Part shown: positions 2,667 through 25,362 of the stretch, in pieces | Layout of the letters: every line of letters starts with the position of its first letter | How positions within the stretch are numbered: position 1 is the first letter of the stretch | Virus record (IMG/VR): IMGVR_UViG_3300037041_000888 | Location: 1-26,056 of that record | DNA length: 26,056 nucleotides | Source: a virus | Strand: one strand, 5' to 3' | Position numbers and translations under genes: made by a program | Notes under the pieces: model-generated | What the model was told of the DNA's origin: nothing | Database searches by the model: none | What the model saw: only the letters and a program-made list of their open reading frames with translations

Positions 2667-2911
2667 TCGTCATCTTCTTCTTCAACATCAAAAATCTCAT
2701 CGTGTAACTCGCAGATGCAGTAATCAATTATCTTGAGTGCCTTGCGCCGTATTCGTTTAATTCGGCGTTTATCCTCGTTACTCATCAAGGCCGTGTCCAT
2801 ATCGCTCACGGCTTGAATTGCGTTGTATGATGCTCCGATGTATTCGGGAGTGGATGTAGGAGGTAAGAACTCCATCTCAACGGCTTCGGTTATAGTATCT
2901 TGCCCTTCCAT
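2663..2911 (-). CDS. Small protein of unknown function, acidic C-terminus
   Basis: This 82-residue protein has a central basic helix (EDKRRIKRIRRKALKIIDY) and ends in an acidic tail (FDVEEEDDE). The gene overlaps the end of the phosphoesterase gene by 22 bases and the next gene by four. I do not recognise a family. Charge segregation of this kind suits a small binding or adaptor protein, but that is only a guess. Confidence 0.6.
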   Translation of the reverse strand: MEGQDTITEAVEMEFLPPTSTPEYIGASYNAIQAVSDMDTALMSNEDKRRIKRIRRKALKIIDYCICELHDEIFDVEEEDDE

Positions 2912-3858
2912 ATACGCTTGTTTTGTACCTCGTAATTATCGCCATCAATATCCACCACTGCAAACCCATGATTCCACTTATTTATGGGCAGATACGCCGG
3001 GTGCAACTCCGAAAGGCAACCGAGGCTCCAAGTAGTTACTATGTTGCCGTTTAAATTCGGCTCGGTGTGTTCGCTTGTTTGGTGGTTATGCCCTTGCATT
3101 GCGCTCACCTTGGCTCTTAAAAACAAGCCCCTTGCTACGTTAACAGGCGAAAAGAAACCCGAACTAAATTCATGCCCGTGTATGATGTTCAAATCACCCG
3201 CTTTCATTATCCTTTTTTCGCCTATAATTTCAACATCGGCTCTTTTTTTTATTATTGCGTTCAATTCAAATTCCTCAACGCCTACAAGTTCACCCGCCTT
3301 TTGCCAAAGAAAATGCTCGTATCGCTCCTCGTGGTTTCCTATTTTGAAATACACCTTGCACTTAAACAAATTGTTTAAGGTCTCCATAAATTGCTCGAAG
3401 GAATTTAATTCCTCGGCAAAGTGTCGCTTCTTTGGATCACGCACAAAACGGCTTAACCCGTGAAAATCCAAGGTATCACCATTGAGCAAAATAGCATCGG
3501 GTTTGTAGTGCTTTAAATAATCAAACGTGGCCGTTAATGCCTCGATGCTATGATAAGGTATGTGTATGTCGCTTAACACCGCCAACCGCTTCGCATCAAT
3601 CCGAAACGGCTCGTATATCGTCTCATCCGATGTCGGTAAGTTGTACGGGTTCTTTGGCCTTTCCTTTGCTTCGTGAGTAACAGTTACACCTCCCTTACCG
3701 CCGTGCTTGCCCTCGATTCGCCGTAATGATGTGCGGGCATCTTCAACGTCTTTGAAGGTTAGTTTTTCTTTCTCGTACATTATCCGAGAAAGTTTCAAAG
3801 TGGGCATCTCCATGCCGAATTTGTCTCTATACTGGCGAGCGATGTCCGCTTTAGTCAT
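2890..3858 (-). CDS. Calcineurin-like metallophosphoesterase
   Basis: The 322-residue protein has the full set of metallophosphoesterase motifs: LSDIHIPYH (Asp97, His99), NGDTLDFHG (Asp128), GNHEERYEH (Asn175, His176), IIHGHE (His227 and His229) and GHNH (His257, His259). These bind two metal ions and hydrolyse phosphomonoesters or phosphodiesters. The first 90 residues are separate: a helix-rich N-terminus (TKADIARQYRDKFG and on) that looks like a small helix-turn-helix, then a linker. That suggests action on nucleic acid, though the substrate is not visible. It sits between the holin candidate and the spanin region and probably shares their transcript. Catalytic residues all appear intact. 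Confidence 0.82.
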   Translation of the reverse strand: MTKADIARQYRDKFGMEMPTLKLSRIMYEKEKLTFKDVEDARTSLRRIEGKHGGKGGVTVTHEAKERPKNPYNLPTSDETIYEPFRIDAKRLAVLSDIHIPYHSIEALTATFDYLKHYKPDAILLNGDTLDFHGLSRFVRDPKKRHFAEELNSFEQFMETLNNLFKCKVYFKIGNHEERYEHFLWQKAGELVGVEEFELNAIIKKRADVEIIGEKRIMKAGDLNIIHGHEFSSGFFSPVNVARGLFLRAKVSAMQGHNHQTSEHTEPNLNGNIVTTWSLGCLSELHPAYLPINKWNHGFAVVDIDGDNYEVQNKRIWKGKIL

Positions 3859-4140: not shown

Positions 4141-4393
4141 ATCCGTTGGGTAATTTAGTGAATATTTTATTTCGGTCGAAAATTAACTCCATGCCCTTAA
4201 AATAAACAAGCTTAGCCATCGGTACACGCTTAGTTTCCTTGATTACTTGCACCCGTTCTTCTAAACGTGCCGTGCGGTCGAGTAATACTTTTACATCGTT
4301 TTTTAGGTCGATTACGAACCACGATAAGATGGTGAGTAAACCGGGCGTAAGCCACGCCTTCACTTGGTCGATTGTGTTGGATTGCGTAGCCAT
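4127..4393 (-). CDS. Small membrane protein with one hydrophobic helix and a coiled coil; possible holin partner
   Basis: The 88-residue protein has a single hydrophobic segment (AWLTPGLLTILSWFVI, about 13-28), followed directly by a charged helix (DLKNDVKVLLDRTARLEERVQVI) that can form a coiled coil, and then a short C-terminal domain. This layout is like that of haemolysin XhlA-type or other accessory holin proteins. It overlaps the holin candidate downstream and shares one base with the end of the fibre gene upstream. An anchor for a tail or membrane complex is an alternative. Confidence 0.5.
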   Translation of the reverse strand: MATQSNTIDQVKAWLTPGLLTILSWFVIDLKNDVKVLLDRTARLEERVQVIKETKRVPMAKLVYFKGMELIFDRNKIFTKLPNGYDYI

Positions 4394-7300
4394 TAATATG
4401 TAATATTAAATTGTGAACGAATGGCCTCGTGTATATTATTTGCAAACGTTTCGGATTGCGCAATGATTGCGCCCATGTGCTGATATATCGCACTTCCGCC
4501 CCAATACAAATCAAACGTTGGGTTAAGTGCTGATGGTGCGGCCGTTACCGTACTACTTGCCGCATAGGCGTTGTTGGCAATTATGCGCCCACGCAATGTG
4601 GCCGCCGTATTATTTGGCTTGTTAATCATTGATATAACATGAGTTTTCGGCACCACAATTGTACTTGCGCCGGGCGCAATATTCATTACGTTAGCCGCTC
4701 CGTTAGTTATGGTTGTTCGTATTGTATTGGTTGTAGTCCATAGCAATACAAATCCACGAGTTGTTGTTGTTGTAGTTCCTGTGCCGATAATTAATGCAGT
4801 CAAATTTGCACTTTTTGACACCGCATAAAGGCCGTATGTTGCCGTTAACCCATTGTGCATGAAGTTATAAGTACCGGCGGCGGCTGAACCGGCGACAGTC
4901 ATTTGTTGACCGCTTACGGTTTGATTGTTAATTACTGCTATGCCGTTATCCTTTACAATTGTACCGCCCGTGTATATAATAGGCTGATTGGCGGGTGTTG
5001 CTTGTGTGAAATTGTTTGCTCCGATTTGGTCATAAATAGTAACCACACGACCAATCGTACCCGCACAATGGGAGTTGATTAAGGCCTCGTTTAAGTAGCC
5101 GTTATTATCGTGTCCGATATTAATTTCCGCGTTATCACTTTCTCGGCGAATACGAATTAATGGCTGACCAAAATACGCACCACGCAATAAGAACGGCCAC
5201 CATCCTGAGTGCCACGATGTTGGGTACTTATCAGCAATGGTTGTAAATATTGCCAATTCGTTTGAGTCAACATATGATGTGCCGTTGACATTCGATGCCG
5301 TTACTCGGCACCATACACGCTCGCCCGATTGTAGCGGTTGTAATACATAGGTGCTTGTTATGGCACCCGCAATCATCGTGAGGCCGTAGTACCATTGATA
5401 GGATACAGTTGGTGTAGGCGAACCCGTAATTGTAAGTGGTACGATTGAGCATGATAATGTTTGCGATACAACTTGAATACCGCTAATTATTGGAACGCCA
5501 GTTATAATGGCACCACACGCACCGAGCGAGGCAATCTCGATATAATTCGATGGCGTAATAATGTCGGGCGTTATGCCGTTGGTTGCTGTTTCGAGTATGC
5601 GAATCCAACGCCCATTGTCGGTCGGTTGCACAATGTATGTTGCGCCCGTTTGCAGTGGTGCGTAATCAGTCCAAGTAACACCGCTATCGGTAGAATATTG
5701 CCACTTGCGGGTAATGGTTGAACTTGGTGTTCCCGTGTACACGCCATCTTGTGAAAACAAGGTGCTTCCCGATGTATAACTACCGAAAATAACGGGCGGT
5801 TGAAGTATTGCGGGTGGGCTTGTTGGTACGATTACATTCGATGCCAATACACTTGGGCCGATTGCGTTTGTGGCCGTTACCTCGCTTTGAATATTAGCAC
5901 CGCTATCGGCTAAAATTGTGGTATAGGTTGACGATGTTGCACCGCCAATCGCAACGCCATTGCGTAACCAACGATAGGTATAGGTAATTGTTCCGCTACC
6001 AGTCCATGTTCCATCGGTGGTGGTGAGTACACTACCAACCAATGTTGCACCCGTTACAACGGGGGCGGTTACATTGATAGGTGCGCTATCGATGTACTCC
6101 GAATTAGTGAACGCTTGCCCTGTTCCAACTGGGTTGGTTGCAGTTACACGGCAGCGTATTACACGCCCAATATCGGCAGTTATTACCACCTTGGTTGCGC
6201 CCGTTTGTAATGGGGCATAGTTGCTCCACGTTGCGCCGCCATCGGTGCTATATTGCCATAAATAAGTATATACTGTAATCGGAGGGGAGGCATTCCACGA
6301 ACCCAAATTAATAGACAATGTATCGCCCGGCGTATTGTTTCCAATTATGCTCGGTGCGACTACGTTCACGGGGGCATTACCTACTGCAGTAATCGAGTTA
6401 CTTACTTGTGATGCTACGCCGTAGGCGTTGGTGGCCGTTACTACGCAAGTTATAACCGCTCCGTAGTCGCTCGCTTGAATTATGTACGATGGTGTTGTTG
6501 CTACCGATGTAATACCACTAAACCACTCGTATGTGTACACGATTGGAGATGTGCCGTTCCACGTTCCAACCGATACCGCCATTGTTGCGCCCGTAATTGG
6601 TGAGCCACCGCCCGCAACGGAAATAATCGGAGGCGTAGCGTTTGATGGAGGCGTAACGCCAGGCCCCGATGGAACAACAATATTGTTACTCGTTGCCGAT
6701 GCAGTGCCGCCTAAATTCGTGCCCGTAACCACGCAAGTAATACTATCACCGATGTCGCTCGGTTGTACTTGGTATGTGTTGCTATTCGTGCCAATCGGCG
6801 TGATTCCGTTTAGCCATTGGTAACTATACGTTATGTTGTTACCTTGCCAAGTGCCGATAAAACATTCGATAACTTGGCCGGGATTAGCGGGGCCACCGCC
6901 GACTACCACAATGCTCGGTGCTACGATATTAACGGGCGAGTAATCACCCGCAGTAATCGTGTTCGATGTTGCCGAGTTGCTACCTGCGGGGTTAACCGCA
7001 GTAACTACGCAAGTGATGTTTGCGAGGGTGTCGGTAATTACGAGTTGATATTGCGCCGAGTTATCACCTACGGGCGTTGCACCCGAAAACCATTGAAAGT
7101 TGTATGTAATGTTCGTACCGCTCCACGAACCAACCGAGCAAGTTAGTTGCGAACCTAAAGTAGTGCCACCGCTTATTGTCGGTGTAGTAATATTTTGCGG
7201 TGAGTAATCACCCGCCGTGATCATGTTACTTGCTTGTGTTCCATTCGGGTTTATTCCATTCGATGCGGTTACAAAACACTTGATGTCCTTTAAACTATCG

Positions 7301-7938
7301 GACAAATTAAGCGTGTATGTGTTGCCCGTTCCTACTTGCTCACCATCGGCAAACCAAGTAAAGGTAAATGATGGTAAAGGGTAACCGCTCCAAGTTCCCG
7401 TAGTGCAAGTTAGCGTACTGCCTTGCGTATTGCTTCCGCTTATTACGGGTGCGATAGTGTTGATAGGCGATGCGTTGGCGGGTACAATTGGCACGGCACC
7501 CGAGTAGCACACCGATGGACTGCCTATGCCGTTGGTAGCCGTTCCTTTTACTCGTATGTACTTGCCAACATCGGTCGGTGCAATAAGAAACGATGCGCCC
7601 GTGATGCCCGTAGACACCCAAGTAATACCATCAATTGAAGATTCCCACAAATATGTTTTAGTCGGCGTTGGAATACCGATAGCGGGAAAGTTTAATACAT
7701 TGATTGTTTCGCCCGGTTGGTCTGCATCGCTGATATGTACTGCCATGCAAGTTGGTGCTTGGTCGGCGCACGTTGGTGTGTTCGATTGAAAATAAATAAA
7801 CCAATCGTAACCGCTTTTGGCTACGCCGTTTCCAAGCCATACCTCATCGGTGGTACATGAACACCAATTGATTGAGGATATGTAAGCGAAAAAATCGCAA
7901 GTATTTAATTGTTGACCTGTGGCTAAATTTGTAAACAT
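4393..7938 (-). CDS. Large receptor-binding tail or virion fibre: Ig-like repeats plus C-terminal lectin-like (AbfB-type) module
   Basis: This 1181-residue protein begins with a Cys-containing N-terminal region (residues 1-80, probably virion attachment). It then carries about nine Ig-like domains of 80-95 residues (roughly 85-900), with the repeated pattern APxISG...GTWxG...YxW...DxGxxIxCxVTATNxxG. Three domains keep a Cys pair at the usual B/F-strand places (178/221, 267/310, 359/402), and the last has 830/877. Domains six and eight share the segment QYSTDxGxTWxxYAPLQTGAT. From about residue 905 a different module follows, with PLIRIRRESDNAEINIGHD, VVTIYDQIGANNFTQAT and NQPIIYTGG. It resembles the arabinofuranosidase-B/laminin-G-like module common at the ends of phage tail proteins, which binds glycans. 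I infer receptor or mucus binding. It lies after the neck genes and before the lysis genes. Confidence 0.8.
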   Translation of the reverse strand: MFTNLATGQQLNTCDFFAYISSINWCSCTTDEVWLGNGVAKSGYDWFIYFQSNTPTCADQAPTCMAVHISDADQPGETINVLNFPAIGIPTPTKTYLWESSIDGITWVSTGITGASFLIAPTDVGKYIRVKGTATNGIGSPSVCYSGAVPIVPANASPINTIAPVISGSNTQGSTLTCTTGTWSGYPLPSFTFTWFADGEQVGTGNTYTLNLSDSLKDIKCFVTASNGINPNGTQASNMITAGDYSPQNITTPTISGGTTLGSQLTCSVGSWSGTNITYNFQWFSGATPVGDNSAQYQLVITDTLANITCVVTAVNPAGSNSATSNTITAGDYSPVNIVAPSIVVVGGGPANPGQVIECFIGTWQGNNITYSYQWLNGITPIGTNSNTYQVQPSDIGDSITCVVTGTNLGGTASATSNNIVVPSGPGVTPPSNATPPIISVAGGGSPITGATMAVSVGTWNGTSPIVYTYEWFSGITSVATTPSYIIQASDYGAVITCVVTATNAYGVASQVSNSITAVGNAPVNVVAPSIIGNNTPGDTLSINLGSWNASPPITVYTYLWQYSTDGGATWSNYAPLQTGATKVVITADIGRVIRCRVTATNPVGTGQAFTNSEYIDSAPINVTAPVVTGATLVGSVLTTTDGTWTGSGTITYTYRWLRNGVAIGGATSSTYTTILADSGANIQSEVTATNAIGPSVLASNVIVPTSPPAILQPPVIFGSYTSGSTLFSQDGVYTGTPSSTITRKWQYSTDSGVTWTDYAPLQTGATYIVQPTDNGRWIRILETATNGITPDIITPSNYIEIASLGACGAIITGVPIISGIQVVSQTLSCSIVPLTITGSPTPTVSYQWYYGLTMIAGAITSTYVLQPLQSGERVWCRVTASNVNGTSYVDSNELAIFTTIADKYPTSWHSGWWPFLLRGAYFGQPLIRIRRESDNAEINIGHDNNGYLNEALINSHCAGTIGRVVTIYDQIGANNFTQATPANQPIIYTGGTIVKDNGIAVINNQTVSGQQMTVAGSAAAGTYNFMHNGLTATYGLYAVSKSANLTALIIGTGTTTTTTRGFVLLWTTTNTIRTTITNGAANVMNIAPGASTIVVPKTHVISMINKPNNTAATLRGRIIANNAYAASSTVTAAPSALNPTFDLYWGGSAIYQHMGAIIAQSETFANNIHEAIRSQFNITY

Positions 7939-22870: not shown

Positions 22871-22895
22871 AAAATAGGGCGCAATGCCCTATTTT
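22871..22895 (-). promoter_or_regulatory. Perfect 10-bp hairpin directly before the tape measure start
   Basis: On the minus strand AAAATAGGGC, loop ATTGC and GCCCTATTTT form a perfect 10-bp stem, followed by TG TGTT and then ATG at 22864. It overlaps the stop codon of the frameshifted chaperone and ends about seven bases before the tape measure start. It could be a weak terminator (GC core then TATTTTT) or a translation block that keeps the tape measure at low copy number. It may also stabilise the upstream mRNA end. Confidence 0.65.
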
Positions 22896-23206
22896 AAACG
22901 TTTACCACTCTTGCGTTGTTGCTCGGCGTTGTGCCTTGCATCGTCTAAACGCCGTTTGTGTATAGTATTGGCGTATAAAAATTGGTATAAGGCTTCAAGG
23001 CTCCATGTGTATAATTCATTGATACGCATCGGGTCTCTATCCGCTAACTGAAAGATTAGATAGTTCCGTTCCTCGATGTGGTTTTCGATTTGCCGGGCAA
23101 GGTCGGCAGTTGTTCGTGCCTTTCTTTTACTGCCATCCATACGGCTAAAATATCGCTCATTGAGATATTGGCCGAGGCGTTCATGTGCTTGAACGCTTCG
23201 CCAATA
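22889..23206 (-). CDS. Tail assembly chaperone, -1 frame extension (G-T type)
   Basis: This frame is -1 relative to the upstream chaperone and overlaps its last 151 bases beyond the slip site. It has no clear start of its own after the slip site. Entered by frameshifting at 23212-23206, it adds 105 residues, beginning YWRSVQAHERLGQYLNERYF and ending NAEQQRKSGKRLK. The added part is helical and basic, as in the T half of lambda gpGT. The fusion would have 241 residues, with residue 136 (second Phe of DFF) the last shared one. The stop TAG lies in the hairpin before the tape measure gene. An ATG at 23260 exists in this frame but lies upstream of the slip site and has no visible binding site. 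Confidence 0.72.
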   Translation of the reverse strand, partial: YWRSVQAHERLGQYLNERYFSRMDGSKRKARTTADLARQIENHIEERNYLIFQLADRDPMRINELYTWSLEALYQFLYANTIHKRRLDDARHNAEQQRKSGKRLK

Positions 23207-23613
23207 AAAAAATCCGCTTCGCCCGCCGACCTCCAAACGGCTTTTTTGCGTTCTTGCCATGCCTCATCGTACTCGGCGGGTTCGTCATCCATGAGGAAAT
23301 AAACACACGCCAATTCCTCGTATGCACGTTTCTCGGCAAGCATACCCATCCGCCCCTCCAAATTCTGCGCTACTGCAATCACGTTCTCCCGCAGTTTCTT
23401 GGGGTCTCGTTCCTCGATGGCTTGGTCTTTTAAGATACCGCACACCTCACGCAAGAACCCCTCGCTGATGCCGTGCCTCAAAAATAACTCTTGAATTTCG
23501 GCTACCATAAAGCGTGAGTGTAGTATCTCATCCGCTTGTTGGATATCGTAGAACTTATGCTCACCGATGGTCTTTATCGGCGTTCGGCGTTTACTTGGTG
23601 GCGTTGGTTTCAT
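23056..23613 (-). CDS. Tail assembly chaperone, zero-frame product (G type)
   Basis: This 185-residue protein lies just upstream of the tape measure gene, separated from it only by the overlapping -1 frame. That is the layout of lambda G, GT and H. The sequence is helical and charged, with no enzymatic motif. Its last 49 residues (after F136) are read only without frameshifting. In long-tailed phages the short product is made in excess and the fusion in minor amounts; both coat the tape measure protein during tail assembly and are absent from the virion. The start overlaps the previous gene's end by 23 bases. The order, overlap and slip signal together make this call firm, though the sequence itself is not recognisable. 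Confidence 0.75.
   Translation of the reverse strand: MKPTPPSKRRTPIKTIGEHKFYDIQQADEILHSRFMVAEIQELFLRHGISEGFLREVCGILKDQAIEERDPKKLRENVIAVAQNLEGRMGMLAEKRAYEELACVYFLMDDEPAEYDEAWQERKKAVWRSAGEADFFIGEAFKHMNASANISMSDILAVWMAVKERHEQLPTLPGKSKTTSRNGTI
23167..23212 (-). promoter_or_regulatory. Programmed -1 ribosomal frameshift signal: T TTT TTT with downstream stem-loop
   Basis: The minus strand reads GCG GAT TTT TTT ATT in the zero frame, with seven T's (23212-23206) giving an exact X XXY YYZ heptamer. Nine bases later a perfect 7-bp stem GCGTTCA/TGAACGC (23196-23190 with 23183-23177), loop AGCACA, begins. It is extended below by ATTGGC/GCCAAT (23205-23200 with 23172-23167). Slip site, spacer and structure all fit canonical -1 frameshift signals. 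Confidence 0.82.
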
Positions 23614-24738: not shown

Positions 24739-25362
24739 CTATTTTTTGTTTATAATTTGATTTTTTAACTTGGACAAAAGTAATACGTTTTCCGCAATTT
24801 CACGCCCATATTTTTTGTTTTTGTTCAATATGGCCAAATCGCCACGGCTTACGCATAACAGGTTTTCAATTGCAAAGTTCTGCTTATCGCCATCGGCGAA
24901 GATTACCGCCATGCCGGGCGGTATAGTACCGTTGTGTTGCTCCCAAATTAAGCGGTGTTTACCTACGAACACACGATCCGCCATTCGCACCATAGTATAT
25001 CCGTACACGTTTACCCGCTCGTAGCCATCGTGCTTCGTGTTGTGGGGTTTTTGCCCTTTCTTGAAAAAAGTGCGTTCTACCTTTGCCCGTAGTTCGGGTG
25101 GCATCTTCTTGCCCTTGTTTTGCGGAACGTGTCCTTTCGGGAATCGGTGCGGTGCGCCGTTATTAAGCAACCGCATAGTGTACGTTTGAATATTGGCAAG
25201 GTGCTCGGCATCTTTTTTTAAGCCCAATACAATGGCTCGGGAGTTGATTGTACCGATGCTCATGCCCATGATGTCCGCAACGTGCTGCGAGGTGTAGGTC
25301 GGGTATAGTAGCCTCAATACATCATCAAGGTCGGGTGTCCAATTGTTGTAGTTACTTCGCAT
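24739..25362 (-). CDS. HNH endonuclease with N-terminal helix-turn-helix
   Basis: This 207-residue protein has three parts. Residues 1-50 form a DNA-binding helix-turn-helix (YPTYTSQHVADIMGMSIGTI and SRAIVLGLKK). A basic linker follows (RFPKGHVPQNKGKKMPPEL), of the kind common in HNH endonucleases. An HNH domain (residues about 115-180) has GKHRLIWEQHNG (His136), IPPGMAVIFADGDKQNFAIE (Asp157, Asn162) and NLLCVSRGDL. Such enzymes cut DNA as homing endonucleases or help packaging when next to terminase genes. Here the neighbour upstream is a methyltransferase and a small membrane protein. All visible catalytic residues fit the common phage HNH variant, where the second histidine is replaced. 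Confidence 0.82.
   Translation of the reverse strand: MRSNYNNWTPDLDDVLRLLYPTYTSQHVADIMGMSIGTINSRAIVLGLKKDAEHLANIQTYTMRLLNNGAPHRFPKGHVPQNKGKKMPPELRAKVERTFFKKGQKPHNTKHDGYERVNVYGYTMVRMADRVFVGKHRLIWEQHNGTIPPGMAVIFADGDKQNFAIENLLCVSRGDLAILNKNKKYGREIAENVLLLSKLKNQIINKK

Follow-up and report, generated by a model that had tools for sequence, protein, structure and literature searches.

The window analysed here is a virus record of 26,056 nucleotides (positions 1–26,056 of IMG/VR record IMGVR_UViG_3300037041_000888), in which two overlapping frames of a putative tail assembly chaperone and a tape measure gene are located on the minus strand. The zero-frame ORF (23056–23613, minus strand) encodes a G-like chaperone of 185 residues with 54–66% identity to its relatives. 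The second frame, which is exactly -1 relative to the first, is open over 22889–23263 (minus strand), ending in a stop codon at 22889–22891 and preceded just upstream by a TGA at 23266–23264; from 23212 downwards it encodes a T-like domain, for which 32 rows could be aligned. The tape measure gene (22864–20183, minus strand, 893 residues) lies directly downstream of the two frames, an architecture that is present in relatives too. It was identified by a weak match to a PHROG tape measure family (E = 0.00037) and by its homologues in L007 (E = 4.4e-7) and L005 (E = 3.5e-41). Other minus-strand genes of the window encode an HNH endonuclease (24739–25362, phrog_1891, E = 2.3e-54), slightly upstream of the chaperone gene, a metallo-phosphoesterase-like protein (2890–3858, phrog_221, E = 1.3e-39) and a protein of 1181 residues (4393–7938), several stretches of which match phrog_26223 and a virion structural family.

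Within the overlap the zero frame reads GCG GAT TTT TTT ATT, which places a T_TTT_TTT heptamer in zero-frame phase at 23212–23206 (minus strand). Fusion at this site is predicted to yield a protein of 241 residues, comprising 136 residues from the zero-frame codons up to 23206 and 105 residues from the -1 frame from 23206 onwards. Nine bases after the heptamer starts a predicted inner stem of 7 bp, with the 5' arm GCGUUCA (23190–23196) and the 3' arm UGAACGC (23177–23183), which is enclosed by an outer stem of 6 bp formed by AUUGGC (23200–23205) and GCCAAU (23167–23172), all on the minus strand. The original prediction had described the heptamer and its phase, the -1 relation of the frames, both stems and the lengths of 185 and 241 residues; all of these were confirmed, the sizes by recomputation. 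A run of six A residues at 23247–23242 was also considered as a slip site and was rejected, since the zero frame gives C_AAA_AAA there and L008 has CGC CGC AAG ATC at this position.

Neither the G-like nor the T-like domain matched a named PHROG or Pfam family. The G part had no match among PDB sequences, and fold searches with it returned weak, unconvincing matches. In tblastn searches against 50,697 phage records no match was found for the zero-frame proteins of the window, L038, L055 and L039, nor for the tape measure protein of the window. By analogy, the frame architecture and the tape measure gene that follows make it likely that the protein is a tail assembly chaperone. A PHROG tape measure was found downstream of the chaperone in eight of 13 genome regions (L180, L181, L182, L183, L185, L187, L188 and L189), and a virion structural protein family in L178 and L186; the longest ORF in L177 is an integrase, and L179 and L184 have no long ORF within the stretch read.

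Close relatives were retrieved with three queries (the -1 domain, the zero-frame protein and the tape measure), and a tape measure profile reached distant relatives, including a Hymenobacter genome (L020) and many viral contigs. A first scan of genome contigs with the -1 domain as query found no relative. To avoid circularity, chaperone profiles were cut ahead of the slip site: a 19-row profile (A10), cut 8 codons before the codon that precedes the two Phe codons (FF), was searched against genomes, and a subset profile with the same cut (A11) was used to scan viral contigs. The genomes searched with the cut profiles were all drawn from groups of Bacteroidota matches. Zero-frame matches were made with A10, A11 and A6, the last of which includes the slip site, and most of the loci retained were found with profiles ending before it. 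Such a match was present in 135 of 176 sequences, from which L083 and L086, which stop short of the site, and L121, whose 819-residue protein is unrelated, were dropped. This left 132 loci, several of them duplicates of a contig already included, which were grouped into 40 clusters at 70% identity.

At the same FF, 38 of these 40 clusters have T_TTT_TTT or T_TTT_TTC in zero phase, in keeping with the predicted lambda-type programmed -1 frameshift ahead of a tape measure gene. In L109 (position 1944 of the locus, minus strand) the U-run is replaced by GGGAAAG, which is the slip heptamer of lambda, and L101 (about 1905–2052) has its T-like domain in the -1 frame with no U-run and no recognised XXXYYYZ in zero phase. 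Three loci found with the tape measure profile and missed by the chaperone profiles (L021, L024 and L070) carry T_TTT_TTC and stand outside this count; other tape measure relatives, in which a chaperone of this family was not recognised, are uninformative, some of them having different heptamers where frames overlap. Relatives reside in Bacteroidota genomes such as that of Hymenobacter. Before FF the encoded residue may be D, G, A, Y, N, P, S, R, V or F, yet all U-run loci have T as the third base of this codon, and the run is kept as TTT TTT in GC-rich loci, for example in L020 with 64% GC, which together suggest that the run is selected as nucleotides. Viewed within a single genome the heptamer is unremarkable and weak evidence, because T7 runs are not enriched in the window (18 observed against 24.3 expected) and T_TTT_TTT would occur in the overlap with a probability of 0.22 at fixed amino acid sequence and codon usage; for any XXXYYYZ this value is 0.50. 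The significance of the heptamer lies in its conservation.

Comparison of the window with L012, L008 or L010 gives a -1-frame identity of 0.30–0.40 over the 60 nt before the run and of 0.53–0.67 after it; protein-level conservation of the second frame is confined to the part past the slip site. Past the run, its identity equals or slightly exceeds that of the zero frame, which runs on for about 50 codons and is itself conserved there at 0.53–0.67 in the same comparisons. GGAGG-like stretches upstream, spotted by eye, vary in spacing and coincide with conserved TGG AGG/AAG codons.

The 46 nt past the heptamer in the window have a predicted folding energy of -19.1 kcal/mol (z = -4.6; none of 200 shuffles as stable), and comparably strong downstream folds are found in L012 (z = -5.3) and L014 (z = -4.9), but not in L015 (0.8), L008 (0.1), L010 (0.6) or L030 (-1.8). 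In the three strong cases the stem is positioned where ribosomal stimulators sit. Relatives had been expected to conserve heptamer and stem alike; this holds for the heptamer, but among the relatives only L012 and L014 share the stem of the window. In the tree the window groups with the L008 group (97/96), with L012 and L014 outside, which implies either loss of the stem in the L008 group or more than one gain. In the rows for the window, L012 and L014, a homologous 9-bp stem pairs in 92.6% of the cells and shows one double change, from C-G to U-A; on three rows this has little weight, and 177 of 500 shuffles reach it. Synonymous recoding of the zero frame (1000 draws) gives an equally stable structure in 3.2% of the draws for the window, 0.0% for L012 and 3.0% for L014. 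Since this stem folds well only in these three, and since covariation over 11 close rows did not exceed that of shuffles, we rejected the stem as a general family feature; it is probably a clade-limited stimulatory element, accessory at most.

The U-run itself varies in length, with six T in 2 clusters, seven in 13 and nine in 24, one cluster having both seven and nine; runs of eight, or of ten or more, do not occur at the slip site of U-run clusters. The other ORFs of one locus per cluster (56,481 codons) contain 52 T6 and 12 T7 runs and none longer. Synonymous recoding predicts about 7.6 runs of at least eight T in these ORFs, against none observed (Poisson, about 5e-4), while T7 runs are about as frequent as expected (12 versus 15.2). 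Avoidance of long runs in genes has been taken as a sign of slippage (PMC1088944), and the avoidance of runs of at least eight T seen here suggests that slippage takes place on long T runs in the hosts.

We consider it highly probable that the locus encodes a G/GT-type tail assembly chaperone with a programmed -1 ribosomal frameshift on the U-run. Most ribosomes would remain in the zero frame and produce the protein of 185 residues, while a minority of them, whose P and A sites both hold tRNA-Phe on U_UUU_UUU, would slip back by one base, re-pair with UUU-UUU and continue in the -1 frame, giving the 241-residue fusion with the T-like domain. In the window phage and its two stem-bearing relatives the stem, 6–9 nt downstream, would probably raise the efficiency. 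In analogy to lambda, the short form and the fusion would be expected to load the tape measure protein and bring in the tail tube protein. From the observed frames, the phase, position and conservation of the run, the predicted RNA stem and the neighbouring tape measure gene we infer slippage itself, the ribosome as its agent, the effect on efficiency and the function as a chaperone. Counted against this reading are GGGAAAG in L109, the lack of a heptamer in L101, the missing stem in the L008/L010 sister group, the lack of stem covariation above shuffles over the 11 close rows, the absence of a sequence or fold match to known chaperones, and the fact that A_AAA_AAG is described as far more prone to shifting than U_UUU_UUU in E. 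coli (PMC5009743).

The -1 ORF might instead be a separate gene with an internal start, for instance at the ATG at 23260–23258, in which case no fusion would be made. A -1-frame ATG upstream of the run is indeed present in the window and in L012. In L014, L075 and L098, however, a -1-frame stop lies directly ahead of the run, so that in these loci the shift must take place at the run or later, and an upstream start or an earlier slip is excluded there; several other loci have such a stop within 3–9 nt ahead of the run. The first ATG in L014 falls 24 codons into the conserved domain, and an internal start leaves the conserved phase of the run unexplained, which makes this explanation very unlikely. 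Even less credence is given to a decayed or mis-sequenced single gene with a wrongly determined number of T. Assemblies are prone to errors in homopolymers, and L088 has an odd +1 offset (see below), but no single-frame version with fused frames was seen among the 132 loci and 40 clusters, as the original prediction had implied for relatives, and conservation of the zero frame for some 50 codons past the run also speaks against it.

Slippage of RNA polymerase on the T run has to be taken more seriously, as mRNAs with an extra U would be translated normally to the same D-F-F-Y junction and the same product is expected from either mechanism. Bacterial RNA polymerase is described as slipping efficiently in vivo on runs of nine T or A (PMC5009743), which is exactly the length found in 24 clusters, and the avoidance of runs of at least eight T in other ORFs points in the same direction. 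The run of the window, however, consists of only seven T, short of the nine or more at which such slippage is efficient, and the near-expected frequency of T7 runs in other ORFs gives no sign that this length is avoided. Moreover, the polymerase would not be expected to benefit from a stem downstream of the run, since the stimulator described for it is a stem just upstream (PMC5009743). For the window we therefore regard polymerase slippage as improbable, and prefer the ribosomal frameshift.

The T7 and T9 members differ in the folding of the 46 nt after the run, with a mean z of -2.1 for T7 (n = 13) and +0.2 for T9 (n = 24 representatives; Mann-Whitney p = 0.0003), although this and the following T7/T9 p values overstate certainty, because the samples are not independent: 3 changes account for the T7/T9 label across a subfamily of 42 rows (bootstrap 3–4). 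The difference recurs in three further downstream windows (p = 0.0002 to 0.02), with cluster means (p = 0.0004) and when the clade of the window is left out (p = 0.008). No such difference was seen in control windows 60 nt further down (p = 0.70) or 60 or 100 nt upstream (p = 0.68 and 0.18). Among T7 members at least three distinct lineages carry a strong stem, namely the clade of the window, L097 and L110/L111, but many T7 clusters are without one; among T9 lineages none has a comparably strong stem, the lowest z being -2.3 (L116).

The nine T are made up of different codon arrangements: 16 T9 clusters have TTG after FF, four have TTC, three read TTT-TTT-TTT and one GTT-TTT-TTT-TAC. Leu after FF is encoded by TTG in 16 of 16 cluster representatives (log10 of the codon-frequency product -11.2, for clusters that are not independent). 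We do not accept the length of nine as proof of polymerase slippage: the second base of a hydrophobic codon after FF is T, so that a first-base change to T takes the run from seven to nine directly, skipping eight, and a Phe in the -1 frame could also favour TTG. The uniform use of TTG for Leu and the four codon arrangements that give T9 speak against these simpler accounts. In L088/L100 (G242:C9; T9 at 1192–1200) the T-like domain is in +1, unlike in all other placed loci, an offset that could reflect polymerase slippage, -2 shifting or a homopolymer error. A domain in +1 is beyond the reach of -1 ribosomal slippage and could be reached by the polymerase, and a homopolymer error explains it equally well.

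On account of the nine-T length, the missing downstream structure, the avoidance of long runs and the offset in L088/L100, the T9 members may be candidates for transcriptional slippage, with the window being ribosomal. Weak points of this reading of the T9 members are that the hydrophobic codons after FF favour seven and nine as lengths in any case, and that lengthening the U-run may just improve it as a site for the ribosome and make a stem unnecessary. We tentatively propose, at somewhat below an even chance, that one chaperone family has switched several times between recoding machines: the ribosome would act on T6 and T7, in some cases aided by a stem, while on T9 the polymerase would add a U and a stem would not be needed.

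In architecture the family appears to be of the lambda G/GT kind, with overlapping frames before the tape measure gene, the second in -1, and a slip heptamer close to where the first ORF ends (for lambda, see PMC5009743). It differs from lambda in its U-run slip site, in the lack of any sequence or fold similarity found, and in the downstream stem of part of the lineage. Gene position and two-product logic are shared with other tailed-phage chaperone frameshifts, both HK97-like ones and the SEA-PHAGES set described in PRFect (PMC10885494), which use different slip sequences; an efficiency of about 7% is given for the chaperone frameshift in an HK97-like cluster (PMC3711429). The string TTTTTT is absent from the PRFect text as retrieved (PMC10885494), and the literature found in our search, part of it as excerpts, describes no U-run slip site or transcriptional slippage for tail assembly chaperones. 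Far from being peculiar to the window phage, the poly-T slip site is the rule across this chaperone family. New here are the run lengths of six, seven and nine, the T9 runs without the downstream structure that is found in part of the T7 groups, and the lack of runs of at least eight T in the other ORFs examined.

With the slippage genes that carry nine A or T (Thermus dnaX, Shigella mxiE and IS elements) the family shares the nine T in 24 of its 40 clusters; unlike in those genes, the window has seven T and slippage in the chaperone family is only predicted. The closest parallel to a change of mechanism is dnaX, in which recoding is described as ribosomal in E. coli and transcriptional in Thermus (PMC5009743). 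As for dnaX, homologues of the chaperone gene may use two recoding mechanisms, but the putative switch would have occurred within one phage gene family, and the product would be extended rather than truncated.

A family that has no recognisable sequence or fold match thus gains a likely function from its architecture, and a signature for annotation, namely a variable residue with a T-ending codon followed by TTT TTT or TTT TTC. The T9 half of the family poses the more interesting question. If the split between T7 and T9 is real, slippage by the ribosome and by the polymerase would be directly testable at one homologous site, and if the proposal for T9 is true, a tail chaperone would be made by transcriptional slippage and the family would be a natural experiment on the replacement of one recoding mechanism by another.
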